This document shows positions 9,895-40,032 of a stretch of DNA of 54,583 nucleotides, piece after piece. Where the stretch lies: the NCBI RefSeq assembly GCF_014196625.1, contig NZ_JACIDZ010000021.1, forward strand, positions 1 through 54,583, in the 5' to 3' direction. Position 1 is the first letter of the stretch. Every line of letters begins with the position of its first letter. Both the position numbers and the translations under genes were made by a program. Source of the stretch: Martelella radicis (lineage in GTDB: Bacteria > Pseudomonadota > Alphaproteobacteria > Rhizobiales > Rhizobiaceae). Below the pieces are notes generated by a model. It worked only from the letters and a program-made list of their open reading frames with translations, had not been told where the DNA came from and did no database searches.

Positions 9895-11478
9895 ATGCCC
9901 GAAACGCTTGCCGAGGCGGTTGCCCGCCGCCGAACCTTCGCGATCATCTCGCACCCGGACGCCGGTAAAACCACGCTCACTGAAAAGCTGCTGCTGTTCG
10001 GCGGCGCCATTCAGCTTGCCGGCGAAGTGAAGGCCAAGAAGGACCGCATCCAGACGCGGTCCGACTGGATGAAGATCGAGCGCGAGCGCGGCATTTCAGT
10101 GGTCACCTCGGTGATGACATTCGAGTATGAGGACACGGTCTTCAACCTTCTCGACACGCCCGGCCATGAGGACTTCGCCGACGACACCTATCGCACGCTG
10201 ACGGCGGTGGATGCCGCTATCATGGTCATCGACGCGGCCAAGGGCATCGAGCCGCGCACGCTGAAGCTCTTCGAAGTCTGCCGCATGCGCGACATCCCGA
10301 TCATCACCTTCGTTAACAAGATGGACCGCGAGGCCCGCGATACATTCGAGATCATCGACGAAGTGGCGGAAAAGCTGGCGCTTGATCCCGTGCCGATGAC
10401 ATGGCCGATCGGTCAGGGCAAGAGCTTTGCCGGCACCTACCACCTGCGCGACAGCGCGGTGCGTTACGGCGACGGCGAGCGCGAACTGACCAAGGTCAAC
10501 GGCCCGGAAGTGGTCGCCGAAAGACTGCCCGAGCATGAGCGCGAAGACTGGGCGGAGATGGCCGAGCTTGCCATTGACGGTTACCCGGTCTTTTCCCGCG
10601 AGGCTTTCCTCGAGGGCCATATGACGCCGGTCTATTTCGGCTCGGCGCTGAGAAACAACGGCGTGCGCGACCTCATCCACGCGCTTTCAGAGTTCGGCCC
10701 GCCGCCGCGCGCGCAGGTCGCCGATGTCAGAACCGTGGAAGCCACCGACCCGAAGATGAGCGCCTTCGTCTTCAAGATCCAGGCGAACATGGACCCCAAC
10801 CACCGCGACCGCATCGCCTTTGTTCGCGTGTGCTCGGGCGAGTTGAAGCGCGGCATGAAGGCGCGCCTTTCGCGCACCGGCAAGCAGATGGGACTGACGG
10901 CGCCGCAATTCTTCTTCGCTTCGCAGCGCCAGCTTGCCGATACGGCCTATGCCGGCGATGTCGTCGGCATCCCGAACCACGGCGCACTCAGGATCGGCGA
11001 TACGCTGACCGATGGCGAGCAACTCGTCTTCCAGGGCGTGCCGAACTTCGCGCCGGAAATCCTGCGCCGCGTCCGGCTTGAGGACGCGATGAAGGCGAAG
11101 AAGCTCAAGGAAGCCCTGCAACAGATGGCCGAGGAAGGCGTCGTGCAGCTCTTCACCCCGGAAGATGGCTCGCCGGCGATCGTCGGCGTGGTCGGCGCGC
11201 TGCAGCTCGATGTCCTGAAGGAGCGGCTGAAGGCCGAATACGGCCTGCCGGTCTCCTTCGAGATGGCGCGCTTTTCCATCTGCCGCTGGATTTCGGCGGA
11301 AAAGCCCGCCGACCTAGACAAATTCGTCTCCTCGCATCGCGGCGATATCGCCCGCGACCTCGACGGCGATCCGGTGTTCATGGCGCAGGACGGTTTCTCG
11401 CTGAACTATGAGAGCGAGCGCGCCCCGGAGATCAGGATGATCGCGATCAAGGAATACCATCAGGCAAAGGCGGCGTGA
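9895..11478 (+). CDS. prfC: Peptide chain release factor 3
   Basis: This 527-residue translational GTPase recycles RF1 and RF2 from the ribosome after stop-codon hydrolysis. The G-domain motifs are intact: SHPDAGKTTL (P loop), the switch I region ERERGISVVTS, DTPGHEDFADDTYR (G3) and NKMDREARD (G4). The C-terminal part has the RF3-specific domain III with FQGVPNFAPEILRRVRLEDAMK. Length is as in E. coli (529). The ATG at 9895 is preceded by AGGATATTGCATCG, a weak ribosome site. A dehydrogenase gene begins four bases after the stop, so the two are probably co-transcribed although functionally unrelated. Confidence 0.97.
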   Translation: MPETLAEAVARRRTFAIISHPDAGKTTLTEKLLLFGGAIQLAGEVKAKKDRIQTRSDWMKIERERGISVVTSVMTFEYEDTVFNLLDTPGHEDFADDTYRTLTAVDAAIMVIDAAKGIEPRTLKLFEVCRMRDIPIITFVNKMDREARDTFEIIDEVAEKLALDPVPMTWPIGQGKSFAGTYHLRDSAVRYGDGERELTKVNGPEVVAERLPEHEREDWAEMAELAIDGYPVFSREAFLEGHMTPVYFGSALRNNGVRDLIHALSEFGPPPRAQVADVRTVEATDPKMSAFVFKIQANMDPNHRDRIAFVRVCSGELKRGMKARLSRTGKQMGLTAPQFFFASQRQLADTAYAGDVVGIPNHGALRIGDTLTDGEQLVFQGVPNFAPEILRRVRLEDAMKAKKLKEALQQMAEEGVVQLFTPEDGSPAIVGVVGALQLDVLKERLKAEYGLPVSFEMARFSICRWISAEKPADLDKFVSSHRGDIARDLDGDPVFMAQDGFSLNYESERAPEIRMIAIKEYHQAKAA

Positions 11479-11482
11479 GACG

Positions 11483-12352
11483 ATGAGCGAGAAGGAAGTC
11501 ATCGGCATTTGCGGCATCGGGCGGATGGGAAGCGCGATCGCCGACCGTCTCGCGGCAAAAGGGTTCCGCCTCGTGCTTTGGTCGCGAAGCGGCGTGACGG
11601 ATGAATTCGCCGACAGGAATCGCGCCGAGATTGCCCTCAATCTCACTTCGCTCGCCTTCAAGTCCGACATCATCATCACCTCGCTGATCAATGACGGGGC
11701 GGTAGACTCGGTGCTTTCGAAACTGGTGGAGACCTCGCTGCCGGGCAAGCTGGTCGTCGAGGCATCAACGGTGAGGCCGGACACGCTGAGGCACTTTTCG
11801 GAGAAGATCAAAGCCAAGGGCGGCAGCGCCATCGACGCGCCGATCTCCGGCGGCCCTGAACTCGTGCGCGAAGGCACGGCGGGCGTCTATGTCGGCGGCG
11901 CCACGATCGATTTCAAGCGCTATCTCCCGGTCGCCGAAGCGCTTTCCGACCGCATCCACCATACCGGCGCGCTCGGCGCGGGTGCTGCCGCCAAGATCGT
12001 CAACAACATGATGCTCTGCGGCTACTGGGAAGTGCTGAAGGAAGCGCTCCTGACCGGCAAGAAGGCCGGCCTATCGGTTGAGACCATGCTCGACGTGCTG
12101 TTGACCAGCCCCGGCGGTTCGCCGGCGCTCAAGTTCCGCGCGCCGCGCATTCTGGGCGAGGACAAGAGCGTCGGTTTTCCGGCAAAAGGCGCGCTCAAGG
12201 ACGCGACGCTCTTTGCCGAAGTGGCGGAAAACTTCGGCATCGAGACCCCCGCCATCAAGGCGGCGCTCGAAAGCTACCGCGCCTGCATCGAGGACGGCCA
12301 CGGCGACGAGGACCTGTCGGCAATGGTGAGGACGGCGCTCGCGAAGGAGTAA
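11483..12352 (+). CDS. 3-hydroxyisobutyrate dehydrogenase-like NAD(P)-dependent oxidoreductase
   Basis: This 289-residue enzyme belongs to the beta-hydroxyacid dehydrogenase family. The N-terminal Rossmann fold starts GICGIGRMGSAIADRL. The substrate-binding signature DAPISGGPELVREG lies near residue 118. The catalytic Lys is in GAAAKIVNNMM, followed by the all-alpha C-terminal domain. The family includes 3-hydroxyisobutyrate, tartronate semialdehyde and succinic semialdehyde reductases, and this sequence does not allow a choice between them. It starts four bases after prfC, suggesting readthrough expression. It converges on the GFA gene with only three bases between their stop codons. Confidence 0.9.
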   Translation: MSEKEVIGICGIGRMGSAIADRLAAKGFRLVLWSRSGVTDEFADRNRAEIALNLTSLAFKSDIIITSLINDGAVDSVLSKLVETSLPGKLVVEASTVRPDTLRHFSEKIKAKGGSAIDAPISGGPELVREGTAGVYVGGATIDFKRYLPVAEALSDRIHHTGALGAGAAAKIVNNMMLCGYWEVLKEALLTGKKAGLSVETMLDVLLTSPGGSPALKFRAPRILGEDKSVGFPAKGALKDATLFAEVAENFGIETPAIKAALESYRACIEDGHGDEDLSAMVRTALAKE

Positions 12353-30704: not shown

Positions 30705-32018
30705 TCAAAGGCGAGCGAGCCATGTCGCGATCGCCGGGAAGGCAACGATCAGGACGAGCGAAACGAGCATGGCACCGACAAACGGCAAGGCACCCCTAAA
30801 AATGTCGGAGACTTTCAGCGATCGGTCATTGATCGCCGATTTGATGATATAGACCGAAAGGCCGAATGGCGGCGTCAGCAGCCCGACCTCGACGGCCACA
30901 ACGGTCAGTACGCCGAACCAGATCAGGTCGAACCCTGCGGCTTCCGCGACCGGCAACGCGATCGGCAACAGGATCAGCATGATCGAGATGGAATCGATCA
31001 GGCAACCGAGCGCGATGATCAAGAGCAGGTAGAGCAGAAGGAAGCCATAGGGGCCGATCGGGCCCGACAGCATGGTTTCCGCCAGAAAACGCGGGACGCC
31101 CGAAAGCGCCAGCATGCGGCTGAAGAACGTCGCGGCCAAAATCAGAAACAGCACCGAAACGGTAATCTGCCCGGTTTCAACCAGCAAGTTCCAGAAGGAG
31201 CGCGGCGTCAGCGAGCGCCGCAGAAGCGCAATCAACAGGGCGCCAAGCGCACCGGCCGCACCGGCCTCGGTCGGATTGAGGAAACCGCCATAAAGCCCAC
31301 CGAGGACGAGCAGCATCAAGAAGATGATCGGCACCGCCTTGCGGGCAAGCGCCAGCCAGCCGATCTCCTCGTCGTGGGTCTCCGGCTTTTCCGGCGTGAA
31401 GACGAAATCCGGCTTCAGCCATGCCAGAAGGAAGATGGTGAGCGAGAAGGCAAAGGCCAGAAGAAGGCCCGGACCGACGCCGGCAAGAAACATCCGCCCG
31501 ACTGATTCCTCTGCGAGAACCGCATAGACGATCATCAGCAGCGAGGGCGGGATCAGCATGCCGAGAACGGAGGAGCCGGCGACGACCCCGGTCGCGAATT
31601 TGGCCGTATAGCCGTGGCGCGTCATCTCCGGCACCGCGACCCGGCTGAACACGGTGGCAGACGCGATGGAAACGCCGGTGATCGCGGCAAACACGGCATT
31701 GGCGAAGACCGTGGCGATACCAAGCCCGGCGGTGATCCGGCCCATCCGCTTCTGGAACACGTCGAACGTATCCTTGCCGACTTTGGAAATCGTCACCAGA
31801 AGGCCCATCAGCACGAAGAGCGGGACGATGGCGTAGAGATATTCCCTGAGCGAGTTGTTGGCGACGGCGCCGAGCATGCGCATGGAAACCGGTTCGCCGC
31901 GAATGGCCGCAACGCCGATGAAGGACACGAACAGCATGCTGACGCCGATCGGCATGCCGACATAGATCAGGACAAGCAGGCCAGCGATCGCCAGGCCTCC
32001 GATTTCGAGCGGGCTCAT
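30705..32018 (-). CDS. dctM: TRAP transporter large permease (DctM), catabolic island
   Basis: This 437-residue inner-membrane protein is the substrate-translocating subunit of a tripartite ATP-independent periplasmic transporter, driven by an ion gradient. It has about 12-14 hydrophobic segments with typical DctM runs: VGMPIGVSMLFVSF near the start, ITGVSIASATVFSRVAVPEM, VAGSSVLGMLIPPSLLMIVYAVL and LGCLIDSISIMLILLPIALPV. Its start overlaps the DctQ stop by four bases (ATGA). It is the last gene of a six-gene operon starting at the citryl-CoA-lyase-like gene. A GC hairpin follows. Substrate is expected to be an organic acid, unidentified. Confidence 0.95.
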   Translation of the reverse strand: MSPLEIGGLAIAGLLVLIYVGMPIGVSMLFVSFIGVAAIRGEPVSMRMLGAVANNSLREYLYAIVPLFVLMGLLVTISKVGKDTFDVFQKRMGRITAGLGIATVFANAVFAAITGVSIASATVFSRVAVPEMTRHGYTAKFATGVVAGSSVLGMLIPPSLLMIVYAVLAEESVGRMFLAGVGPGLLLAFAFSLTIFLLAWLKPDFVFTPEKPETHDEEIGWLALARKAVPIIFLMLLVLGGLYGGFLNPTEAGAAGALGALLIALLRRSLTPRSFWNLLVETGQITVSVLFLILAATFFSRMLALSGVPRFLAETMLSGPIGPYGFLLLYLLLIIALGCLIDSISIMLILLPIALPVAEAAGFDLIWFGVLTVVAVEVGLLTPPFGLSVYIIKSAINDRSLKVSDIFRGALPFVGAMLVSLVLIVAFPAIATWLARL

Positions 32019-32578
32019 GGATGGTCTCCGGCATTTCGGCAGGCGAGAAGGTCGCTCAAGGCGCGGACGAGGAATTCGAGCGCGGCGACGCTGACACCCA
32101 GGACGATGAAGGCGCGGAACGGCCAGACCGGCAGGGTGGCAATGCCGGTGACCCCGATATATTCGCCGGACGCCCAGTCCTTCTGCAGGATCAGGAAACT
32201 CGACCAGGCGATCAGGCCGATCATCGCCGCGCCGGTGAGATTGAAAATCGCCGACAGCAGACTGCCGGCCACCGGCCGCTTCAGCCTGAAGGCGGGAAAG
32301 AAGATCTCGGTCCGGGCGAGCCTGTCCGCGCGGATGGTGGTGGCAAGCTGCAGCGAGACGATCATGACCAGAAGCAGCGCGCCGAGCTCGGAGACCAGCG
32401 GCAGCGACGAGCCCAGCAGGTTGCGCATGAAGATATCGGCCGAGATGACCAGCATCAGCACCAGAATGAGCACGGTTCCAAGCGCCGCAAGACCATCGAC
32501 AAGCATGTGCCAGGCCCGCCCGAGGGCGTTCGGGGGGCGCCCGTCAGGATGACGGGCGCTTTCGGTGGTGGATGACAT
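32015..32578 (-). CDS. dctQ: TRAP transporter small permease (DctQ), catabolic island
   Basis: This 187-residue protein has four hydrophobic segments (about 28-50, 62-85, 103-128 and 148-170). It has the DctQ features of an early Asp/Arg pair in ISADIFMRNLLGSSLPLVSELGALLLV and the Arg-rich loop after the second helix. It forms the membrane complex with DctM. The gene overlaps dctM by four bases and begins nine bases after the dctP stop, so all three are translated from one message. Confidence 0.92.
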   Translation of the reverse strand: MSSTTESARHPDGRPPNALGRAWHMLVDGLAALGTVLILVLMLVISADIFMRNLLGSSLPLVSELGALLLVMIVSLQLATTIRADRLARTEIFFPAFRLKRPVAGSLLSAIFNLTGAAMIGLIAWSSFLILQKDWASGEYIGVTGIATLPVWPFRAFIVLGVSVAALEFLVRALSDLLACRNAGDHP

Positions 32579-32587
32579 CGGGCCGCC

Positions 32588-33661
32588 CTACTGGTCCCAG
32601 TCGCGCATCGGCGTTTCGCCGCGTTCGCGCAGACCGTCCATATAGGCGCTCAGAAATTCGCGCGCCGGAAGGCCCTGGGCCTCCAGATTGTCGGCCCATT
32701 CGCCGGCAAGATCGGGAAGCATGGCAACCCAGGCTTCACGTTCCTCCTCGGGCATTTCGACGAGCGTCACCGGCGGGTTCTGGTCGGCGCCGAGTTCCAC
32801 CATCGCCTGAAGGGCAGCCTCATGGCCTTCCAGAAGCTGCTTGCCGTGGGCGGCGGTGTAATATTTGCCGGCCTCGATCATTGCGTCCTGGACTTCCGTC
32901 GGCAGCGTATCCCAGATATCGCGGTTGATGGCGAGCGCGCCGGAGAAGGACACGGCCGCATCGAAGCGGTTGAGATAGGGCGCGACCTCATAGAGCTTCG
33001 CAGGCTTCGCGCCGAGCGCAAGCGTCAGCACGCCGTCGGAAACGCCGGTCTGGATATCGGTGTAGAAAGTGGTCAGCGCGCCGTCCACGGCATTGGCGCC
33101 GGTTCCGCGCAGCCAGGTGCCGAGCACGCCGGGGGCTGAGATCTTCATGCCCTCGATATCGGCGATGCCTTCGATCGGCTCCTTGGTGTAGATGTCGTAC
33201 ATATCGGTGCCGGTCAGGCCGAGAACCTTCAGATTGTACTGTTCCCATTCCTCGCGGAAGGCCTCGTTGTTCTCCATCAGATCTTCCATCACCTCGAGCT
33301 GAAGCTGAGGATTTGCGGTGGAGAACGGCGCGTAGCTCGTCGCCTGGCTGAGCGGCAGCTTCGCCGGCTCCAGCAGCGAGAAGACCCAGCCGATATCGGT
33401 GATGCCTTCCTCGACGGAAGACAGCGTGGCATTCGCCTTGTAGAGCTGGCCGCCGAAGGCCTCATTCCAGTTGATCTTGTAATCGCCGGTCTCGGCGAGG
33501 ATCTCATCGGTCTTTGCCATGAAATGGGTCTGGATCATGCCGACCCACGGGATCACCGTCGGATGGCTGGAGGCCACCGTCAGGTTGATGGTTTCCTGCG
33601 CGAAGAGCGCCGAGGGCATCGCCACCATGGCGACAGTCGTCAGTCTCAGAAAATTACGCAT
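32588..33661 (-). CDS. dctP: TRAP transporter substrate-binding protein (DctP), catabolic island
   Basis: This 357-residue periplasmic binding protein has a signal peptide (about 1-21, ending ALFAQE). The fold is DctP-type, with WNEAFGGQLYKANATLSSVEEGITDIGW and FYTDIQTGVSDGVLT. In most family members an Arg in a G-x-K-x-R motif clamps the ligand carboxylate; here the segment reads IEGMKISAPG, so Ser takes that place. This suggests a different carboxylate contact or an unusual ligand. The gene lies between a YciI-like gene and dctQ in the same operon as a CoA-transferase and a citryl-CoA-lyase-like enzyme, which points to an organic acid fed straight into CoA chemistry. Confidence 0.94.
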   Translation of the reverse strand: MRNFLRLTTVAMVAMPSALFAQETINLTVASSHPTVIPWVGMIQTHFMAKTDEILAETGDYKINWNEAFGGQLYKANATLSSVEEGITDIGWVFSLLEPAKLPLSQATSYAPFSTANPQLQLEVMEDLMENNEAFREEWEQYNLKVLGLTGTDMYDIYTKEPIEGIADIEGMKISAPGVLGTWLRGTGANAVDGALTTFYTDIQTGVSDGVLTLALGAKPAKLYEVAPYLNRFDAAVSFSGALAINRDIWDTLPTEVQDAMIEAGKYYTAAHGKQLLEGHEAALQAMVELGADQNPPVTLVEMPEEEREAWVAMLPDLAGEWADNLEAQGLPAREFLSAYMDGLRERGETPMRDWDQ

Positions 33662-33685
33662 GTTTTCTCCTCCCGAAAGATGCGT

Positions 33686-34081
33686 TCAGTCGATCACGAA
33701 TGTCTGCGTCGAATAGTCGAGCCGGACGGAAACCCGGCCCTCATTGATCATCCAGGGACGTACCCTGAATCGCCGCGCTCCGGCCTTGTGCATGGGGTCG
33801 TTGCGGGCAATCTCGGTTGCAGCTTCCACGCTTTCGGCGCGGATGATCACCATGCCCTCGCCCGCCCAGTTCTCGCCGTCATCGGAAAAGAGCGGGCCCG
33901 CGGCATAGAGCACGCCGTCCCGTTCCAACCCGACCTGATAGGCGAGATGGGCCTCCATGTTCTCAAACACCGGACCCATGCCGTTCGTCGCCTCGGTGAA
34001 GACGGCGAACAGTTTCTTCTGCAGCATGGCCTTGCTGGCTTCCATCACGGCTGCCGCCGGAACGGTCTCTGTCTCTTGCAT
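33686..34081 (-). CDS. YciI-like protein
   Basis: This 131-residue protein of the YciI/dimeric alpha-beta barrel family is recognisable by AHLAYQVGLERDGVLYAAGPLFSDDG and by DPMHKAGARRFRVRPWMINEG near the end. YciI-like enzymes include dehydrochlorinases, and related dimeric barrels include muconolactone isomerases in aromatic catabolism, which fits a role in processing a ring-cleavage product. That role is inferred from family and position. The start is set at the ATG at 34081, preceded by AGGAGG about ten bases away; an in-frame GTG at 34090 overlaps that ribosome site. It is the third gene of the operon. Confidence 0.85.
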   Translation of the reverse strand: MQETETVPAAAVMEASKAMLQKKLFAVFTEATNGMGPVFENMEAHLAYQVGLERDGVLYAAGPLFSDDGENWAGEGMVIIRAESVEAATEIARNDPMHKAGARRFRVRPWMINEGRVSVRLDYSTQTFVID

Positions 34082-34122
34082 GCCGGTCACCTCCTCCTTG
34101 TGGCCGTTGCCATATGCGCCGA

Positions 34123-35268
34123 TCAGCCGGCCTTGCGGCGGGCGATCTCGGCGCGGATCTCAGCACCGTGCTGATCGAGCAGCGGCGGCGCGCCGATCTC
34201 GGTTTCGACAGCCTCGTCAAAGCTGTAGGGCGGGCGCACGGTCTTGGTCTTTCCCTTTTCCGGGTGGTCCATCTCGACGGCGATCTTCAGGTGCTGCGCC
34301 TGCGGGTCATCGAGCGCCTCGTCGCTGTCGTAAGCCGGCGCATGGGGCACGCCGGCCTCAAGCAATTTCTCGCACCAGGCATCCCGCGTTTCGGTCTTGA
34401 AGACGGGCGTCAGGATCTCGATAAGATCGTCCTGGTGCTGGATGCGTTCCAGCCGCTCGGCAAAGCGCGGATCATCGGCAAGCCCTTCCTGTCGGGTCGC
34501 CTGAAGCAGCCCTTCCCAGAACTTGGCGGGCGAGGACATGTGGATCGCCACCCATTTTCCGTCCGCGCATTCGAATGTGTAGCTCTGCGAAACGGTCGGG
34601 CGCGAGAGCGGTCCCATGACTTCGCCGACAGCGAAATAATGGGTGAAGCTGTCGAGGTTGAAATGGGTCATCGCCTCTAGCATCGAGATATCGATGCGTC
34701 GGCCCTTGCCGGTGCTCGTGCGCTCCAGAAGCGCGGCGAGAATGGCCATGGCGGCGTATTGCCCGGTGAGCGCATCGGCAATCGCCGGGCCGATGACGCG
34801 CGGATTGGTCGGCGGCGTCACCAGCCGCAGGAAGCCGCTGGCCGCCTGGGCGACGGTATCGAATGCCGGGCGGTCGCGCGCAGGTCCCGTCTGGCCGAAA
34901 CCGGAGATCGCGCAATAGATCAGGTCCGGCTTTACCTTGCGTAAGTCCGCCTCGCCGACACCCAGCCGCTCGGAAACGCCGGGGCGAAAGTTCTGGATGA
35001 ACACATCGGCGGTGGAGACAAGATCGTGCAGGAAGGCCAATTCGGCCGGATCCTTGGTATCGATCGCGATCGAGCGCTTGTTGCGGTTATAGGTCTGGTA
35101 ATGCGGCGAATAGAGCCCGCCCTTGAAGGCGCGGAAGGGATCGCCCGCGCCCGGCCTCTCGACCTTGATCACATCGGCGCCGAGATCGCCGAGATGCATG
35201 GCGGCGGCCGGCCCTGTGATATAGGTGCCGAGTTCGATAACCCTGATGTTCTTGAGGATCTTGACCAT
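34123..35268 (-). CDS. CaiB/BaiF family (class III) CoA-transferase
   Basis: This 381-residue family III CoA-transferase moves CoA between acids through an aspartyl-CoA thioester. The family fold is clear from VIELGTYITGPAAAMHLGDLGADVIKVERPGAGDPFR at the start, SGFGQTGPARDRPAFD in the middle and KGRRIDISMLEAM. The expected nucleophile is Asp165 in GPAIADALTGQYAAM, close to Asp169 of formyl-CoA transferase. Length fits the shorter single-unit members (380-430). It lies 14 bases after the citryl-CoA-lyase-like gene and should supply its CoA-ester substrate. The acid acceptor is not identifiable from sequence. Confidence 0.93.
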   Translation of the reverse strand: MVKILKNIRVIELGTYITGPAAAMHLGDLGADVIKVERPGAGDPFRAFKGGLYSPHYQTYNRNKRSIAIDTKDPAELAFLHDLVSTADVFIQNFRPGVSERLGVGEADLRKVKPDLIYCAISGFGQTGPARDRPAFDTVAQAASGFLRLVTPPTNPRVIGPAIADALTGQYAAMAILAALLERTSTGKGRRIDISMLEAMTHFNLDSFTHYFAVGEVMGPLSRPTVSQSYTFECADGKWVAIHMSSPAKFWEGLLQATRQEGLADDPRFAERLERIQHQDDLIEILTPVFKTETRDAWCEKLLEAGVPHAPAYDSDEALDDPQAQHLKIAVEMDHPEKGKTKTVRPPYSFDEAVETEIGAPPLLDQHGAEIRAEIARRKAG

Positions 35269-35282
35269 CCGGCTCTTCCCGA

Positions 35283-36086
35283 TCAGTTGCTTTTCGCGGC
35301 GGCCTTGGGGCCGTCATAGGCGATGGCGAGGTCCGCCTTGTGCGACATGATAAAGCCGATCGAGCGTCGGCTTTCCTCGAAGAGATGGGCGGAAAGGCCT
35401 GCGGTGCGCGCGACGATCGGGACGGCCTTCAGCGCATCCACCGGCCAGCCGGCATCGAGGATCGTCGCGGGGATCGCTCCGGACACGTTGATCGGCAGCG
35501 GCCGTTCGATGATGCCAGGGGCAACCTTCGCCAGCATATAGAGTGCGTCGATGTAGCGCCCCCTGATTTCCAGTTCGGCGGCAACTTCCAGCAACCGGTC
35601 GGCACGGGGATCGCCGGAGGAATGCTGCGGATGGCCAAGTCCCGGCACCTTGCGGCGCTCGGCCTTCAGTGCCGTAACGCTTTCGATAGCCGCCTTTTCG
35701 AGGTCCCCGCCCATGCTGTCGGCCATCTCCACTACGGAGACGAGAAAGCGCCCGGCCACTTCGGATGAGCCAGCAACAACGCTTCCCATGCCGAGAATGC
35801 CGGCCGCCATGGCCCCCTGCCAGGCATCGGGTCCCGCGGCAAGGGTCATGCGCGCGGCCTGCACGCTTGGCACCAGGCCGTGTTCGGCGATGGAGACCAG
35901 GCAGGCATCCATCATGCGTCGCTGCGCGGGCGCGGGCTTTTCACCAGTCACGAGAAACCAGAAATAGTCGCTGAAATCGATCTTCCCGATCAGTTCGCTG
36001 CACAGGTCCTGGCCGCGAACCGTGATGCTTTCAGCATCGGATTCGGCAATGGCGGTGAACGCGGCGTCCTGTTTCCCAATTCGCAT
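35283..36086 (-). CDS. Citryl-CoA lyase-like enzyme (citrate synthase superfamily)
   Basis: This 267-residue protein corresponds to the short citryl-CoA lyase type of the citrate synthase superfamily, like the C-terminal module of ATP-citrate lyase. His152 in PGLGHPQHSSGDPRA is the conserved catalytic His of the GHR segment, although the Arg is replaced by Pro. A second His is in RTAGLSAHLFEE. The first citrate-synthase His is absent (GMGSVVAGSSEVA), as is normal for the lyase type. The family cleaves 3-hydroxyacyl-CoA esters such as citryl-CoA to acetyl-CoA plus an oxoacid. It is the first gene of the operon, followed by a CoA-transferase. AGGGAG precedes the ATG at 36086. True citryl-CoA is not proven as substrate. 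Confidence 0.88.
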   Translation of the reverse strand: MRIGKQDAAFTAIAESDAESITVRGQDLCSELIGKIDFSDYFWFLVTGEKPAPAQRRMMDACLVSIAEHGLVPSVQAARMTLAAGPDAWQGAMAAGILGMGSVVAGSSEVAGRFLVSVVEMADSMGGDLEKAAIESVTALKAERRKVPGLGHPQHSSGDPRADRLLEVAAELEIRGRYIDALYMLAKVAPGIIERPLPINVSGAIPATILDAGWPVDALKAVPIVARTAGLSAHLFEESRRSIGFIMSHKADLAIAYDGPKAAAKSN

Positions 36087-36108
36087 AACAAACTCCCTTT
36101 TCGCTGTG

Positions 36109-36160
36109 CGAAATAATTTCCTCTTGCCGAAATCGTAGAGAGCAATTACTCTAGCGTCAA
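36109..36160 (-). promoter_or_regulatory. Promoter and IclR-type operator of the catabolic operon
   Basis: On the minus strand TTGACG (36160-36155), 17 bases, then TACGAT (36137-36132) form a good sigma70-like promoter. Just past the expected start point lies CGAAATAATTTCC (36109-36121). Its core, GAAAT-A-ATTTC, is a perfect palindrome and close to the E. coli IclR box GGAAAT-N-ATTTCC. An overlapping repeat TTTCGC-TGT-GCGAAA covers 36099-36113. A divergent IclR-family gene starts at 36310. Repression from this site is the natural reading. Confidence 0.65.
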
Positions 36161-36309
36161 GTTGAAAGCGCGCCGCCCGGCCCGACAGACCGGAAAGGCG
36201 CCTTCATCGGGAGGGAGATCAGGTCCCGCGCCAAGGACATAAGCCTTGTTTTCATCATGCGGCTCACCCACTCTGGCGCTTTACGGATCTGGTTCTTGAG
36301 GACAATGAC

Positions 36310-37131
36310 GTGGCTGAAGTTCTGAAATTCATCGAAGACAGCGAACGACCCGCCGAATTCGTGGAAGCGCTCGCCAAGGGGCTTGCGATCCTCGAATGTT
36401 TCGACGCCGCCCATCCCGAAATGACCCTGAGCGAGGTGGCGCGCCGCGTCGGCCTTTCCCCTGCAGCCGCGCGCCGCAGCCTGATCACGCTGCAGACGCT
36501 CGGCTATGTCGGCCAGACCAACAAGCATTTTCACCTCCGCCCCAAGGTAATGACGCTGAGTTCGGCCTTTTATTTTTCCGCCCATATCGACGAGGTGCTG
36601 CAGCCCAATCTGAGAGCACTGGTCGAACAGTTCGGCGATGCCTCCTCGGTCGGCACGCTTGACGGCGACCATGTGATCTATGTCGCCCATGTCTCGGTGC
36701 AGCGCGCGCGCCGCGCCGCCGCCGTCATCGGCGCGCGCTATCCCGCAGGCGCCACCTCGCTCGGCCGCGTGCTTCTCGCCGGACAATCCGACGAGGCGCT
36801 GGAACACTATCTCAGGACGGCGAAGCTCGAGGCGCTGACCTCCAAGACGGTCACCGACCCCGATGTCCTGCGCGAGAAGATCATGGCCGTTAGGGACGAT
36901 GGCTTTGCCACGACCGTCGACCAGCTCGATTACGGCATCACCGCGCTTGCCGTGCCGATCAGGAACTTCGAAGGCCGCACGATCGCGGCGCTCAACACCT
37001 CGGGCTACACCGGCATGGTGACGCCCGAAAGCATGATCGCGGAACGACTGCCCGCGCTCAGGGAAGCGGCATCGCATATCGCGCATGCCATGAGCCGGTA
37101 TCCGGTTCTGCAATCGACAATGGGAACCTGA
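36310..37131 (+). CDS. IclR-family regulator (PcaR/PobR-like), catabolic island
   Basis: This 273-residue regulator has an N-terminal winged helix (about 18-80, with MTLSEVARRVGLSPAAARRSLITLQTLGYV) and a C-terminal IclR effector domain (about 95-265, with GARYPAGATSLGRVLLA and ALAVPIRNFEGRTIAALNTSGY). It resembles the PcaR/PcaU/PobR branch that controls aromatic acid catabolism. The start is GTG at 36310, with GAGGAC upstream. It is divergent from the citryl-CoA-lyase operon and 43 bases before the amidohydrolase gene, so it probably controls both arms. Effector is unknown. Confidence 0.92.
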   Translation: MAEVLKFIEDSERPAEFVEALAKGLAILECFDAAHPEMTLSEVARRVGLSPAAARRSLITLQTLGYVGQTNKHFHLRPKVMTLSSAFYFSAHIDEVLQPNLRALVEQFGDASSVGTLDGDHVIYVAHVSVQRARRAAAVIGARYPAGATSLGRVLLAGQSDEALEHYLRTAKLEALTSKTVTDPDVLREKIMAVRDDGFATTVDQLDYGITALAVPIRNFEGRTIAALNTSGYTGMVTPESMIAERLPALREAASHIAHAMSRYPVLQSTMGT

Positions 37132-37174
37132 CCGAGGGACAGGTTTTCCGCGCAGGTTCAAGGGAGGAGAAACC

Positions 37175-38647
37175 ATGTGCAGGCTTTGTGACATTTCCAG
37201 ACGCCATCTGCCCTACCCGAACTTCGGGCCCACGGGCGGCGGCATGGGCGCATCGGCGTACGCCACGCCGGTTGCCGAAGGTGTTCCGGAAGCATGCGGC
37301 CGTGAAGGCCAGCGCACGCTGATCAAGAACGGCATCATCCTCTCCATGGATGACAGCGTCGGCGACTTCGAAAAGGGCGATATCCTGATCGAGGGATCGC
37401 GCATCATCGAGATTGCCGAGACCATTGCGGCGGACGACGCCATCGTCATCGATGCTTCCGGCAAGATCGTCATGCCCGGTTTCATCGACACGCATCACCA
37501 TCAGTTCGAGACAGCGCTGCGCGGCCAGCTCGCAAACGCCATCCTCATCAATGACGGCCTGCCGGCGAATGCCCAGAATTATTACGAGACCGTGCTGCAG
37601 TCCTTCTCTCTCGTCTACCGGCCCGAGGACGTCTACATCAACGAACTCTTCGGCGCCCTGTCGCAGCTCGATGCCGGGGTGACGACGGTGATGGATGTCA
37701 GCCAGATCCACCACTCTCCCGCCCATTCGGATGCGGTGGTCTCGGCGCTGAAGGATTCGGGCCGCCGCTCCGTCTTCGGCTATTTCGAAGGCTGGGGCGA
37801 TGATGCGCAATATCCGGGCGACGCGGCGCGGCTGCGCGAACAGTATTTCTCGTCGAACGACCAGCTCATGACCATGATCATGGGCGGCGAAATCTACCTG
37901 CCCTTCCACGAGCAATCCTGGAAGGCCGGGCGCGACCTGGATCTCCCGATCGCGCTGCATGTGGTCGGCACGTTCGGCATGCAGCCGACCTTCGACGGGC
38001 TTGGCGCGGGCGGCGCGTTCGGCGAGGACAATATCTTCATCCACATGACCGGCATGTCGGATGACGGCTGGAAATATGCCCGCGACGCCGGCGCCCATAT
38101 CTCGCTGTCCGTGCCGATCGAGATGCAGATGCGCCATGGCACACCGCCGATCCAGAAGGCGCTCGACTACGGCATGAGCATCTCGCTTTCCACTGACGTG
38201 GAGTGCACAATGACGGCCGACTTCTTCACCCAGATGCGCGCCATGGTGACGCTGCAGCGCATGTTCGCCAACGAGAAGGCACTTTCCGGCGAGGAATACC
38301 CGGCGCTTCTGACGGCGCGCCAGGCGATCCGCGCGGCAACGCTCGGCGGCGCCGAGGGCCTGAAGCTCGACCGCCGCACCGGCTCGCTGACGCCGGGCAA
38401 GGATGCCGACATCATCCTGCTCGACGCCGAGGCGCTCAATGTCGCGCCGCTCAACAACGTACCCGGCACGGTCGTCACCCTGATGGAGCGTTCGAATGTC
38501 GACAGCGTGCTGGTGGCGGGCAAGGTGCGCAAATGGCAGGGCAAGCTTGTCGGCGCCGACATCGCCCATCTGCGCGGCGAACTGGAAAAGAGCCGCGACT
38601 ACATTTTCGAAAAGGCCGGCATCGCCCGTTCGCTGTTCGGCGACTGA
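37175..38647 (+). CDS. Amidohydrolase (ATZ/TRZ or cytosine deaminase-like) with N-terminal MCxxC extension
   Basis: This 490-residue metal-dependent hydrolase belongs to the amidohydrolase superfamily. The usual domain begins around residue 48 (TLIKNGIILSMDD). The metal motif H-x-H is His107/His109 in GFIDTHHHQFETALRG. Further ligands are likely in IALHVVGTF and IFIHMTGMS, and the catalytic Asp in LSTDVECTMT. The closing segment GSLTPGKDADIILLD is typical. Related enzymes deaminate or dechlorinate triazines, pyrimidines and purines. The first 47 residues start MCRLC and are extra to the family; GGGAGGAG before the ATG shows this start is real. It sits between an IclR gene and extradiol dioxygenase genes, so it may prepare an aromatic or heteroaromatic ring for cleavage. 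Confidence 0.9.
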   Translation: MCRLCDISRRHLPYPNFGPTGGGMGASAYATPVAEGVPEACGREGQRTLIKNGIILSMDDSVGDFEKGDILIEGSRIIEIAETIAADDAIVIDASGKIVMPGFIDTHHHQFETALRGQLANAILINDGLPANAQNYYETVLQSFSLVYRPEDVYINELFGALSQLDAGVTTVMDVSQIHHSPAHSDAVVSALKDSGRRSVFGYFEGWGDDAQYPGDAARLREQYFSSNDQLMTMIMGGEIYLPFHEQSWKAGRDLDLPIALHVVGTFGMQPTFDGLGAGGAFGEDNIFIHMTGMSDDGWKYARDAGAHISLSVPIEMQMRHGTPPIQKALDYGMSISLSTDVECTMTADFFTQMRAMVTLQRMFANEKALSGEEYPALLTARQAIRAATLGGAEGLKLDRRTGSLTPGKDADIILLDAEALNVAPLNNVPGTVVTLMERSNVDSVLVAGKVRKWQGKLVGADIAHLRGELEKSRDYIFEKAGIARSLFGD

Positions 38648-38671
38648 AGCCCGGACGGAGACGAGGGAATG

Positions 38672-38709
38672 GCGCCCGCGATGGCCCTTTGTTGAGGGGA
38701 CGCGGGCGC
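38672..38709 (+). other. Intercistronic hairpin before the ligB-like gene
   Basis: Perfect 9-base arms GCGCCCGCG (38672-38680) and CGCGGGCGC (38701-38709) surround a 20-base loop. The hairpin lies in the 90-base gap between the amidohydrolase and dioxygenase genes. There is no T-run, so it may balance expression or stability within the operon. Confidence 0.45.
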
Positions 38710-38737
38710 AAGAGGACATCCGCAAGAGGAGAGAGCA

Positions 38738-39598
38738 TTGGCAAAACTCGTTGCAACACTGGCGTCGACCCACCATCCCTTCTATCTGAAGGCGACCACG
38801 GCGCCGCCCGAACAACAAATGCCCGAGGCGCCGACATGGAAGCGCAAGATCGAGGCCTACCGGGAGACGCTGGCAAAGGCGGAACCGGACGTGCTGGTGA
38901 TGGTCGGCTCCGATCATTTTCACCAGATCTTCCTCGACAACTGCCCGCAGTTCCTGATCGGCAAGGCGGAACGCTATGACGCGACCTTCTACAATGAGGA
39001 ACGCGAATTCGGCATTCCGAAATATGTACTGGAGGGCGACGAGGACATGTCGCGCTTCATGCACCAGCACCTGATGAACCAGAATTTCGATTTCGCCTTT
39101 TCCAACGAGCTGAAGATCGACCATTCCATCATCTGCCCGATCATCACCGTCAGGCCGCAGAACGACCTGCCGGTCGTGCCGATCTACACCAACATCTTCG
39201 CGCCGCCTTTGCACTCGCCGAAGCGCTTCTATGAACTCGGCCGCGCGATCCGCAAGGCGATCGACGACTTTCCATCCGACAAGCGCGTTGCCGCAATCGG
39301 CACCGGGCATCTCTCGCTCGAGCTCGGCGGTCCGCGCCAGTTCATGGAGACCGGCCCCGATCCGGCATTCGACCGCCAGGCGATCGAGTGGCTGAAGACC
39401 GGCGATATCGACGCGATCCTCGAAAACGTCACCCATGAGAGCATGATCGGGAGCGGCAACGCCACCCAGGGCTTCCTGAACTTCATCCTGATGCTCGGCG
39501 TCGCCGGGCCGGAAGGCGCGGACTATGTCGACAATCTCGACCTGTTCCACACCATGGAGGCCTATTTCACCTGGTATCCGAAGGAGGAAGCGGCATGA
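38738..39598 (+). CDS. Extradiol ring-cleavage dioxygenase, class III (LigB-like beta subunit)
   Basis: This 286-residue non-haem Fe(II) dioxygenase of the LigB (class III extradiol) family opens catechol-type rings with O2. Iron ligands are expected at His12 or His13 (ASTHHPF), His60 or His62 (VGSDHFHQIF) and a C-terminal Glu near NVTHESM. The acid-base His lies in IGTGHLSLELGG. Relatives include protocatechuate 4,5-dioxygenase and gallate-type enzymes. The start is TTG at 38738, with AGAGGAGAG upstream. Its stop overlaps the start of the LigA-like subunit gene (ATGA), as in other two-subunit enzymes. The exact substrate cannot be read from sequence. Confidence 0.9.
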   Translation: MAKLVATLASTHHPFYLKATTAPPEQQMPEAPTWKRKIEAYRETLAKAEPDVLVMVGSDHFHQIFLDNCPQFLIGKAERYDATFYNEEREFGIPKYVLEGDEDMSRFMHQHLMNQNFDFAFSNELKIDHSIICPIITVRPQNDLPVVPIYTNIFAPPLHSPKRFYELGRAIRKAIDDFPSDKRVAAIGTGHLSLELGGPRQFMETGPDPAFDRQAIEWLKTGDIDAILENVTHESMIGSGNATQGFLNFILMLGVAGPEGADYVDNLDLFHTMEAYFTWYPKEEAA

Positions 39599-39966
39599 GC
39601 AAATATTACGTCAACAAGTTCCTCTACACGGTCGACCGCGACCCGGAACTCTTGCAGCGCTATATCGACGAACCGCGCACCTTCGTTGCCACCTGGGAAC
39701 AGTCGATCGGCCCGAAGCTTCTGGGCAATGACGTCGAGGTCTCCACCGTCCACGCCCTGACCCATGAGGAGCGCGAGGCGCTGATCAACCATGATTATGT
39801 GGCGCTGTTCGAGATGGGCGCGCATTTCTTCCTCAACCTGACGATCTTCATCGGCATCTATGACGAGCCCTATATGAGCAAGAGCGGCCCGCTGTCGTTC
39901 CAGCGTGAAATGGCCGCAAAATTGCAACACTGGCGCGGCAAGGACTATCCGTCGGTCCAGACCTGA
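39595..39966 (+). CDS. LigA-like small subunit of the extradiol dioxygenase
   Basis: This 123-residue all-helical protein is of the LigA superfamily (protocatechuate 4,5-dioxygenase alpha chain). Recognisable parts are NKFLYTVDRDPELLQRYIDEP at the start and LTHEEREALINHDYVALFEMGAHFFLNL in the middle. The LigA subunit closes over the active site of LigB and contributes to substrate binding. It overlaps the LigB-like gene by four bases. Gene order here is B then A, the reverse of Sphingobium ligAB. A good terminator follows, so this is the last gene of the plus-strand operon. Confidence 0.88.
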   Translation: MSKYYVNKFLYTVDRDPELLQRYIDEPRTFVATWEQSIGPKLLGNDVEVSTVHALTHEEREALINHDYVALFEMGAHFFLNLTIFIGIYDEPYMSKSGPLSFQREMAAKLQHWRGKDYPSVQT

Positions 39967-39995: not shown

Positions 39996-40032
39996 GCCGG
40001 GCGCATCCGCGATGCGTCCGGCCTTTTTTGTT
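39996..40032 (+). terminator. Rho-independent terminator of the plus-strand catabolic operon
   Basis: Arms GCCGGGCGCATC and GATGCGTCCGGC pair over 12 bases (one G-T) around a 3-base loop, directly followed by CTTTTTTG. It begins 30 bases after the LigA-like stop codon. Confidence 0.9.

Follow-up and report, generated by a model that had tools for sequence, protein, structure and literature searches.

Do the two divergent gene arms found on a contig of Martelella radicis form one catabolic unit and, if so, what kind of compound would that unit break down? The window, i.e., the whole stretch of DNA that was analyzed, is one whole contig of this genome (NZ_JACIDZ010000021.1 of assembly GCF_014196625.1; 54,583 nucleotides). 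Its minus arm carries, in this order, genes for a citryl-coenzyme A (CoA)-lyase-like protein (Ccl), a CoA-transferase, a YciI-like protein and the TRAP transporter proteins DctP, DctQ and DctM. The plus arm carries genes for an IclR-family regulator, an amidohydrolase, a LigB-like and a LigA-like protein, followed by a terminator. We give even chances to a reading in which the locus is one catabolic unit, where a hydroxyquinol-like ring would be opened by LigAB, CoA would be transferred to the product and a C-C bond would be cleaved by Ccl. The unit is probably substrate-inducible, and the cluster is probably a little-explored route for aromatic breakdown.

The initial annotation of this DNA had proposed that the two arms belong together, and the neighborhood comparison suggested with it was run. 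Genome contigs were searched with a LigB profile, and the best 80 of 492 relatives were examined as LigB-type loci, with identity cut-offs of at least 50% for Ccl, at least 55% for the CoA-transferase and at least 45% for IclR. Ccl and the CoA-transferase were both present in 66 of the 80 loci and both missing from 14, and no locus carried just one of them. The outcome that would speak against the proposal, arms that never co-occur, was thus not observed. IclR was found in 62 of these 66 core loci, an amidohydrolase of at least 60% identity in 40, and any amidohydrolase (at least 28%) in 51. The two CoA genes lay on the LigB strand in 34 core loci and on the opposite strand in 31; the one mixed locus (L054; loci are cited by their L numbers) has a second transferase-like gene. 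Among 101 genomes sampled from the order, six, one of them that of the window, contained a close Ccl (E ≤ 1e-50; 7 copies in all), and about 0.03 copies would be expected by chance in 80 random 20 kb stretches. Since 66 of 80 LigB loci have Ccl versus 6 of 101 genomes of the order, the linkage exceeds chance.

The co-occurrence anticipated for Rhizobiales was found there, and its range proved to be wider. The LigB-type loci span Alphaproteobacteria and Actinomycetota, with named loci in Rhizobiaceae and kin, Rhodobacterales, and Actinomycetota (Arthrobacter, Microbacteriaceae, Occultella). LigB matches at E ≤ 1e-40 were obtained in 10 of 397 genomes, nine of them from the same branch (at least 62% identity), and the distribution of the cluster is therefore patchy. 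Martelella mediterranea DSM 17316 (L015) encodes a LigB that is 95.8% identical to the window's. Pairwise distance matrices of the proteins were correlated (r = 0.979 for Ccl and the CoA-transferase, 0.773 for LigB and Ccl, and 0.798 for LigB and the CoA-transferase; p = 0.001 in each case), the correlations being partly due to shared ancestry.

A common putative operator was also found. In the window an exact palindrome, TTTCG-N5-CGAAA, precedes the Ccl start codon by 13 nt and lies downstream of the promoter-like sequence TTGACG-17-TACGAT; all 34 divergent loci have an exact copy, 7–27 nt away from where the Ccl match ends. In reordered clusters the palindrome precedes other genes: LigB (L063, L066, L067, L071, and L100), IclR and an ABC-transporter gene (L070), the flavin mononucleotide (FMN) reductase (L072), or DctP (L018). 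A palindrome shared by different first genes, together with the joint presence of both arms, upholds the earlier view of a single catabolic unit. Across 89 loci, 54 sites were counted, and 20 first-order Markov sets gave 2.85 on average and never more than 5; the counts in the loci are non-independent, as related loci inherit the site. The 54 sites were obtained with a spacer of 5, and spacers of 2–4 and 6–9 gave 0–7 sites; 49 of the 54 lay within 400 nt upstream of a cluster gene. The IclR protein would be expected to bind this site and control both arms. It scored 253.8 bits against TIGR02431, the PcaR/PcaU/PobR model, below the cut-off of 284.75, so that by this model it is better described as a relative than as a member. 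The divergent region (36087-36309) contained three sigma-70-like matches versus 2.3 expected, which is weak evidence alone; a promoter-like site for the minus arm was among the results, and the consensus scan of this region gave no promoter for the plus arm.

The LigB-like protein was the first place where the sequences departed from the expected chemistry. It belongs to the LigB fold (PF02900), and the best Foldseek match of its AlphaFold model (mean predicted local distance difference test score, pLDDT, 82; below 50 at residues 61-64) was LigAB (1bou_B; template modeling score 0.82, E = 5e-21). All 90 LigB sequences compared from this branch, the window's included, have the four histidines H12, H60, H129, and H191. 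The canonical Glu, which we take to be an iron ligand, corresponds to Gly245 (Gly in 89 of the 90 sequences, with one gap), so the 2-His-1-carboxylate site is absent. The canonical active-site His after the GTGGxS motif, presumably catalytic in canonical LigB, is Leu194 in all 90. The LigAB-type extradiol chemistry proposed at the outset is therefore, as worded, not supported at two positions of the active site.

To place these changes, a superfamily alignment of 50 rows was used, with 12 sequences of this branch, two distant relatives (L104 and L105) and 15 Glu-bearing LigB/MhpB-type sequences; the other 21 rows (18 DODA-like, L001, L111, and L134) are other branches, outside the Glu/His count, and L115 and L125 are incomplete in it. 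All 15 Glu-bearing sequences have Gly or Ser at position 191, whereas the 12 branch sequences and both distant relatives have Gly at the Glu position and His at 191. This exact exchange suggests His191 as a new metal ligand, and the covariation indicates that it probably replaces the missing Glu; loss of Glu and gain of His191 may have been a single evolutionary event. Compared with LigAB protocatechuate 4,5-dioxygenase and DesB gallate dioxygenase, the enzyme has the same PF02900 fold, a LigA-type subunit and the two iron His, with 23–24% identity in the structural matches, but differs in Gly245, Leu194 and the extra invariant His191. The LigA-like protein of the window gave no Pfam match at E ≤ 0.001 (PF07746, E = 0.0047, below the model cut-off). 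Its label stands because 25 of 25 family members scanned match PF07746 at E ≤ 1 (best 3.8e-6); its top four Foldseek matches were all DesB, with a best E of just 0.28. Additionally, the same genome contains a canonical LigB that retains both Glu and the active-site His (L002, G000:C19:17030-17797), and a standard LigAB enzyme thus probably exists there beside the odd one.

Ccl is a member of the PRK06224 model family, and its closest PDB match was the citryl-CoA lyase 6hxp. Of the positions that we take to form the citrate-synthase catalytic triad, His69 and His152 were present in 74 of 74 sequences, and the Asp position was occupied by Ser202 in 60 and by Ala in 14; in the wider subfamily the Asp was missing from 13 of 13 aligned sequences. 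Ccl thus resembles 6hxp in fold family, in both histidines and in its size of a stand-alone lyase, but it has Ser or Ala for Asp and is partnered with a CoA-transferase in an aromatic-type cluster. The citryl-CoA-lyase chemistry of the initial annotation is, as worded, not supported for this branch as far as the catalytic Asp is concerned. In the CoA-transferase, which has the CaiB fold, the predicted Asp165, presumably catalytic by comparison with formyl-CoA transferase, was invariant in 71 of 71 sequences, and the top PDB sequence match was succinate--hydroxymethylglutarate CoA-transferase 9br7. A comparable sequence of steps is described for itaconate degradation, where, according to PMC12290011, a class III CoA-transferase acts before citramalyl-CoA lyase cleaves a branched dicarboxyl-CoA. 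CoA transfer followed by cleavage by a lyase is common to both, but no itaconyl-CoA hydratase was named among the window proteins scanned.

The neighbors of Ccl in Burkholderiales include intradiol dioxygenases, CaiB or AMP-binding proteins and LeuC/LeuD, with an MhpA-like hydroxylase in B. glumae. On the megaplasmid of Cupriavidus metallidurans CH34 (L147), Ccl, AMP-binding, intradiol dioxygenase, IclR, CaiB, LeuC and LeuD genes lie together. This strain is described in PMC2864759 as having no citryl-CoA synthetase or citryl-CoA lyase for the reductive tricarboxylic acid cycle, a statement that the Asp-less Ccl need not contradict.

The substrate class is suggested by clusters in which LigAB has been exchanged. 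A Ccl-based survey covered 27 places (22 plus 5, window included): 10 had LigAB of this branch, five had an intradiol dioxygenase only, and 12 had neither (several of them on short contigs), "neither" standing for the absence, in the stretch examined, of tblastn matches that cover 35% of the queries at E ≤ 1e-8. Among the 10 LigAB places, one has LigA only, at a contig end, and one has an intradiol gene too. Two further Ccl places (L168 and L170) had neither enzyme. In L169, L172, L198, L218, and L222 the intradiol gene stands beside IclR, Ccl and the CoA-transferase, with no LigAB in the stretch. Apart from this exchange, L169, L172 and L218 match the cluster of the window: IclR is 61–69%, Ccl 69–74% and the CoA-transferase 72–76% identical to the window's proteins, the amidohydrolase is 64–72% identical to the best query, and the TRAP genes and the same palindrome are kept; L222 keeps an ABC-transporter gene instead, and L198 has neither transporter nor amidohydrolase. 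In L208 the genes for Ccl, CoA-transferase, FMN reductase, LigB (partly masked), LigA and an intradiol enzyme are consecutive. On the Ccl tree (84 rows), at least five switches between LigAB and intradiol enzymes were counted, also when starred branches alone were considered. The L172 enzyme matched hydroxyquinol 1,2-dioxygenases best in the PDB (8r2w, 1.5e-59; 1tmx, 8.8e-58), far ahead of catechol 1,2-dioxygenases (8e-34).

The sister clusters therefore resemble the hydroxyquinol pathway in having a hydroxyquinol-like intradiol enzyme in the place of LigAB, and a quinone-reductase-like (FMN/quinone-reductase-type) gene was present in 34 of the 80 LigB-type loci. The window differs in that a LigB-family enzyme takes the dioxygenase place, followed by the CoA-transferase and Ccl. 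With the L172 protein as query, no hydroxyquinol 1,2-dioxygenase match was obtained in the window's genome at E ≤ 1e-10, in a search that had no positive control of its own. None of the window proteins scanned was named as a maleylacetate reductase, in a search that did not extend to the rest of the genome. Separately, the single Fe-ADH gene near L082 was considered as a candidate for this reductase, and no such model matched. In Niveispirillum (L146, the same record as L220), Ccl has a canonical LigB, with both Glu and the active-site His, at a distance of about 1 kb.

In the pathway that we propose, an aromatic (or enediol) acid would be taken up by the TRAP transporter, and the LigAB-like enzyme, with His191 probably standing in for Glu, would open a polyhydroxylated, hydroxyquinol-like ring to give a dicarboxylic acid. 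The CaiB-type transferase would load CoA onto this acid, and Ccl would cleave the resulting thioester at a C-C bond, yielding products for central metabolism, a CoA ester and an acid of shorter chain, with both arms under the control of IclR through TTTCG-N5-CGAAA. The sequences themselves show the co-occurrence, the common putative operator, the correlated protein distances, the altered active sites and the replacement by intradiol dioxygenases. We infer from them the role of LigAB as ring cleaver, the substrate class, the order of the steps and the binding of IclR; the exact product, the reaction of Ccl and the roles of the amidohydrolase and YciI are speculative. A hydroxyquinol-like substrate is preferred because the intradiol replacements and the quinone-reductase-type gene fit it, the latter since a triol oxidizes to a quinone. 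Hydroxyquinol cleavage gives maleylacetate, a beta-keto diacid. In a concrete version of the pathway, ring opening would yield such a maleylacetate-type diacid, CoA transfer would convert it to a beta-ketoacyl-CoA, and Ccl with water would form acetyl-CoA and a maleate- or fumarate-type acid, so that maleylacetate reductase would be bypassed. More specifically, and tentatively, as we think it somewhat unlikely, the LigB-fold enzyme with its three-histidine site (H12, H60, and H191) could be the equivalent of an intradiol enzyme on hydroxyquinol-type rings, feeding a reductase-free route of CoA-transferase and Asp-less Ccl to acetyl-CoA and a maleate-type acid.

The main alternative to a hydroxyquinol-like substrate is a vicinal, pyrogallol-like triol, because extradiol and intradiol cleavage can then give one product. 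LigAB and the intradiol enzyme would both form a 2-hydroxymuconate-type acid, and hydration, CoA transfer and Ccl would lead from there to pyruvate or acetyl-CoA. The swapping of the two enzyme types would then be explained without any change in the cleavage mode of LigAB. Flavin adenine dinucleotide (FAD) hydroxylases of the MhpA type, present at 33% identity or more in a few loci (3 of 80) and also in L020 and B. glumae, agree with such a substrate, and the LeuCD proteins of Burkholderiales could hydrate the product (maleate hydratases are LeuCD-like). The alternative is nevertheless an unlikely one: the best PDB matches of the L172 enzyme are hydroxyquinol dioxygenases, and the altered metal site of LigB is left unexplained. 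Less credible again is a 4,5-cleavage of the protocatechuate or gallate type, in which LigAB would be an ordinary extradiol enzyme and the role of LigK would fall to the CoA-transferase and Ccl, which would split 4-carboxy-4-hydroxy-2-oxoadipate, a citrate analog, as its CoA ester. This chemistry suits the citryl-CoA-lyase fold, LigAB and DesB are the closest solved relatives by sequence and fold, and both the canonical LigB close to Ccl in Niveispirillum and the LeuCD-type hydratases beside Ccl in Burkholderiales agree with it. On the other hand, neither the Glu ligand nor the canonical His of the active site is present in LigB, and the enzymes that take its place belong to the hydroxyquinol/catechol type, with much lower scores for protocatechuate 3,4-type models. 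The reported absence of LigC-, LigI-, LigJ- and LigK-type genes was confirmed for the 14 window proteins of the Pfam scan, where none was named; the rest of the genome was not searched. As a whole, the fact that an intradiol, hydroxyquinol-like enzyme has repeatedly taken over argues against protocatechuate 4,5-cleavage as the best frame for the cluster.

A comparably low probability was given to LigAB not being a dioxygenase at all, but using the LigB fold for a hydrolase, hydratase or isomerase reaction, with ring cleavage taking place elsewhere. The loss of the carboxylate ligand and the active-site His would be understandable in that case, as would the coexistence of LigB and intradiol genes in L208, but the iron-binding H12 and H60 and also H129 are invariant in the whole branch, and in five of six intradiol-bearing clusters the core genes that are absent are LigB and LigA. 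The least probable of the four, in our judgment, is an N-heterocyclic substrate, where the amidohydrolase would hydrolyze or oxygenate a hydroxypyridine-like ring in the manner of KpiC, with LigAB acting before or after it. According to PMC7356986, KpiC (amidohydrolase-1) reportedly acts as a dioxygenase that cleaves the ring of 3,4-dihydroxypyridine, and PydA (PF02900) is annotated for the same step; 3,4-dihydroxypyridine/mimosine degradation as treated there was rejected as the main explanation and retained as a rival only. A protein resembling 2,6-dihydroxypseudooxynicotine hydrolase in a Rhodococcus cluster would also agree with an N-heterocycle. However, the named relatives of KpiC (enamidase, urease-like) are another branch, the window protein matching the PRK08204 model; just 51 of the 66 core loci have any amidohydrolase, and 40 a close one; and the intradiol replacements point to carbocyclic triols.

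Several observations weigh against the hydroxyquinol-like unit that we prefer. Its chemistry has an internal difficulty, as a simple 1,2,4-triol yields one product by extradiol and another by intradiol cleavage; therefore, for the two enzymes to be interchangeable, the substrate must be a vicinal triol or the cleavage by LigAB must be altered. The hydroxyquinol-like label comes from L172, the sole intradiol enzyme compared with the PDB, and NCBIfam scans of four intradiol proteins returned catechol, chlorocatechol and, more weakly, protocatechuate 3,4-dioxygenase models, all below cut-off. L208, with both enzymes, also fits two consecutive rings or substrates. Regarding the active site, the His-to-Leu change is not specific to the branch, as three of the 15 sequences that keep Glu (L106, L107, and L014) share it, and the confidence of the LigB model is modest around residues 191-200 (mean pLDDT 67). 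The linkage is likewise incomplete. Of the 14 LigB-type loci without Ccl and the CoA-transferase, L048, L060 and L071 are near a contig end, and 12 of the 14 genomes have no Ccl at E ≤ 1e-40; LigAB therefore also works without the CoA-dependent lower pathway. Conversely, 12 of the 27 Ccl places lack both branch LigAB and an intradiol gene; one of these is L220, the Niveispirillum record in which a canonical LigB lies at about 1 kb. Finally, many loci, including all those of Actinomycetota, contain no exact copy of the palindrome, and the window's genome as a whole shows no enrichment of it (8 sites versus 7 for the reversed pattern).

If the hydroxyquinol-like reading is true, an aromatic lower pathway that spends CoA instead of using the customary aldolase and reductase steps would exist in two phyla, in bacteria that are marine, soil-dwelling or plant-associated as judged by genus names. 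The repeated interchange of LigB-family and intradiol enzymes within one cluster would also offer a handle on the choice between intradiol and extradiol cleavage. The annotations "extradiol ring-cleavage dioxygenase" and "citryl-CoA lyase" should be flagged for these proteins, as their catalytic residues differ. The remark that the gene combination was not recognized from a described pathway agrees with our finding no paper on it in the open-licence PubMed Central (PMC) literature, which is not proof of none. Other degradation routes were considered and set aside. For mycosporine or gadusol the chemistry is attractive, with no support among the papers listed, and the MhpA-type and intradiol neighbors point to aromatics. 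Riboflavin/lumichrome degradation uses different enzymes, according to PMC12746152. For the fde/ifc clusters of isoflavone and naringenin degradation, PMC11069340 names a glyoxalase-type ring-cleaving protein, and the term "CoA" is absent from its text.

The features of the locus are collected in Table 1. All ten genes were confirmed by open reading frames and by Pfam and NCBIfam scans, as were the gene identities, positions and overlaps first described; the four-base overlaps are at 39595-39598 (LigB/LigA) and 32015-32018 (DctQ/DctM). The strong terminator said to close the plus arm was found as a 12-pair stem (nine G-C pairs) with a loop of 3, followed by CTTTTTT. It was the strongest of nine scan matches, a number showing no excess over the 7.7 expected. 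The flanking uronate-reductase-like and GH88 genes are seldom shared (2 and 1 of the 80 loci, respectively), and one of the two uronate-reductase-like matches is only 25% identical.

Table 1. Features of the divergent locus in the Martelella radicis window.
Feature	Position	Strand	Basis and occurrence
DctM, TRAP transporter large permease	30705-32018	-	PF06808, 281 bits; in 33/80 LigB-type loci
DctQ, TRAP transporter small permease	32015-32578	-	PF04290, 49.9 bits
DctP, TRAP solute-binding protein	32588-33661	-	PF03480, 97.7 bits
YciI-like protein	33686-34090	-	PF03795, 48.9 bits; in 31/80 LigB-type loci
Class III (CaiB) CoA-transferase	34123-35268	-	PF02515, 358.8 bits
Ccl, citryl-CoA-lyase-like, citrate-synthase fold	35283-36086	-	PF00285; NF004868, 303 bits (cut-off 193)
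Operator-like palindrome TTTCGCTGTGCGAAA	36099-36113		Exact TTTCG-N5-CGAAA
Sigma-70-like promoter of the minus arm, TTGACG-17-TACGAT	36132-36160	-	Consensus scan alone
IclR-family regulator	36310-37131	+	PF01614 and PF09339
Amidohydrolase, PRK08204 type	37175-38647	+	PF01979; NF006056, 417 bits (cut-off 391)
LigB-like ring-cleavage subunit	38738-39598	+	PF02900, 109.6 bits (cut-off 26.3)
LigA-like small subunit	39595-39966	+	Label via family matches to PF07746
Intrinsic terminator of the plus arm	39996-40022	+	Stem-loop, then CTTTTTT

The LigB-LigA pair of the odd branch was also seen without nearby Ccl or CoA-transferase in L056, L057, L059, L033, L016, L019, and L088. In L016, L019 and L056 its neighbors are P450, cytochrome c peroxidase, sensor-kinase/two-component, GMC-oxidoreductase or FAH-type genes. 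LigAB loci without Ccl represent a different use of the same odd enzyme.

With regard to the accessory genes, the YciI-like protein gave weak PDB matches (1mwq, E = 0.047; TftG 4lbh, E = 0.1). A methionine-synthase-like PF01717 protein is encoded in 7 of the 80 loci (e.g., L018:8959-9984, L172:12268-13299, L169, and L209) and is possibly a demethylation step for methoxylated substrates; the uroporphyrinogen decarboxylase label that it bears in the annotation of L018 was rejected in favor of the PF01717 assignment. In L020 (Rhodococcus sp. NBC_00297), an alpha/beta hydrolase (10459-11508) closest to 2,6-dihydroxypseudooxynicotine hydrolase (2jbw) is placed between the MhpA-like hydroxylase and the amidohydrolase with the core genes, which hints at acylated polyphenols or hydroxypyridines upstream.

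The amidohydrolase of the cluster keeps H107, H109, H262, H290, E316 and D341 in 58 of 58 sequences, with the HxH...H...H...D metal pattern intact. It reads HVVG where HxxE stands in typical deaminases of the amidohydrolase superfamily, for which we take HxxE to be the motif, and a deaminase role appears doubtful because this motif is missing. A 64% identical amidohydrolase was observed in Alloyangia pacifica (L166), where the nearby annotation shows no LigAB and where a gene of the 2,4'-dihydroxyacetophenone dioxygenase family and a tannase/feruloyl-esterase gene lie within 10 kb of it.

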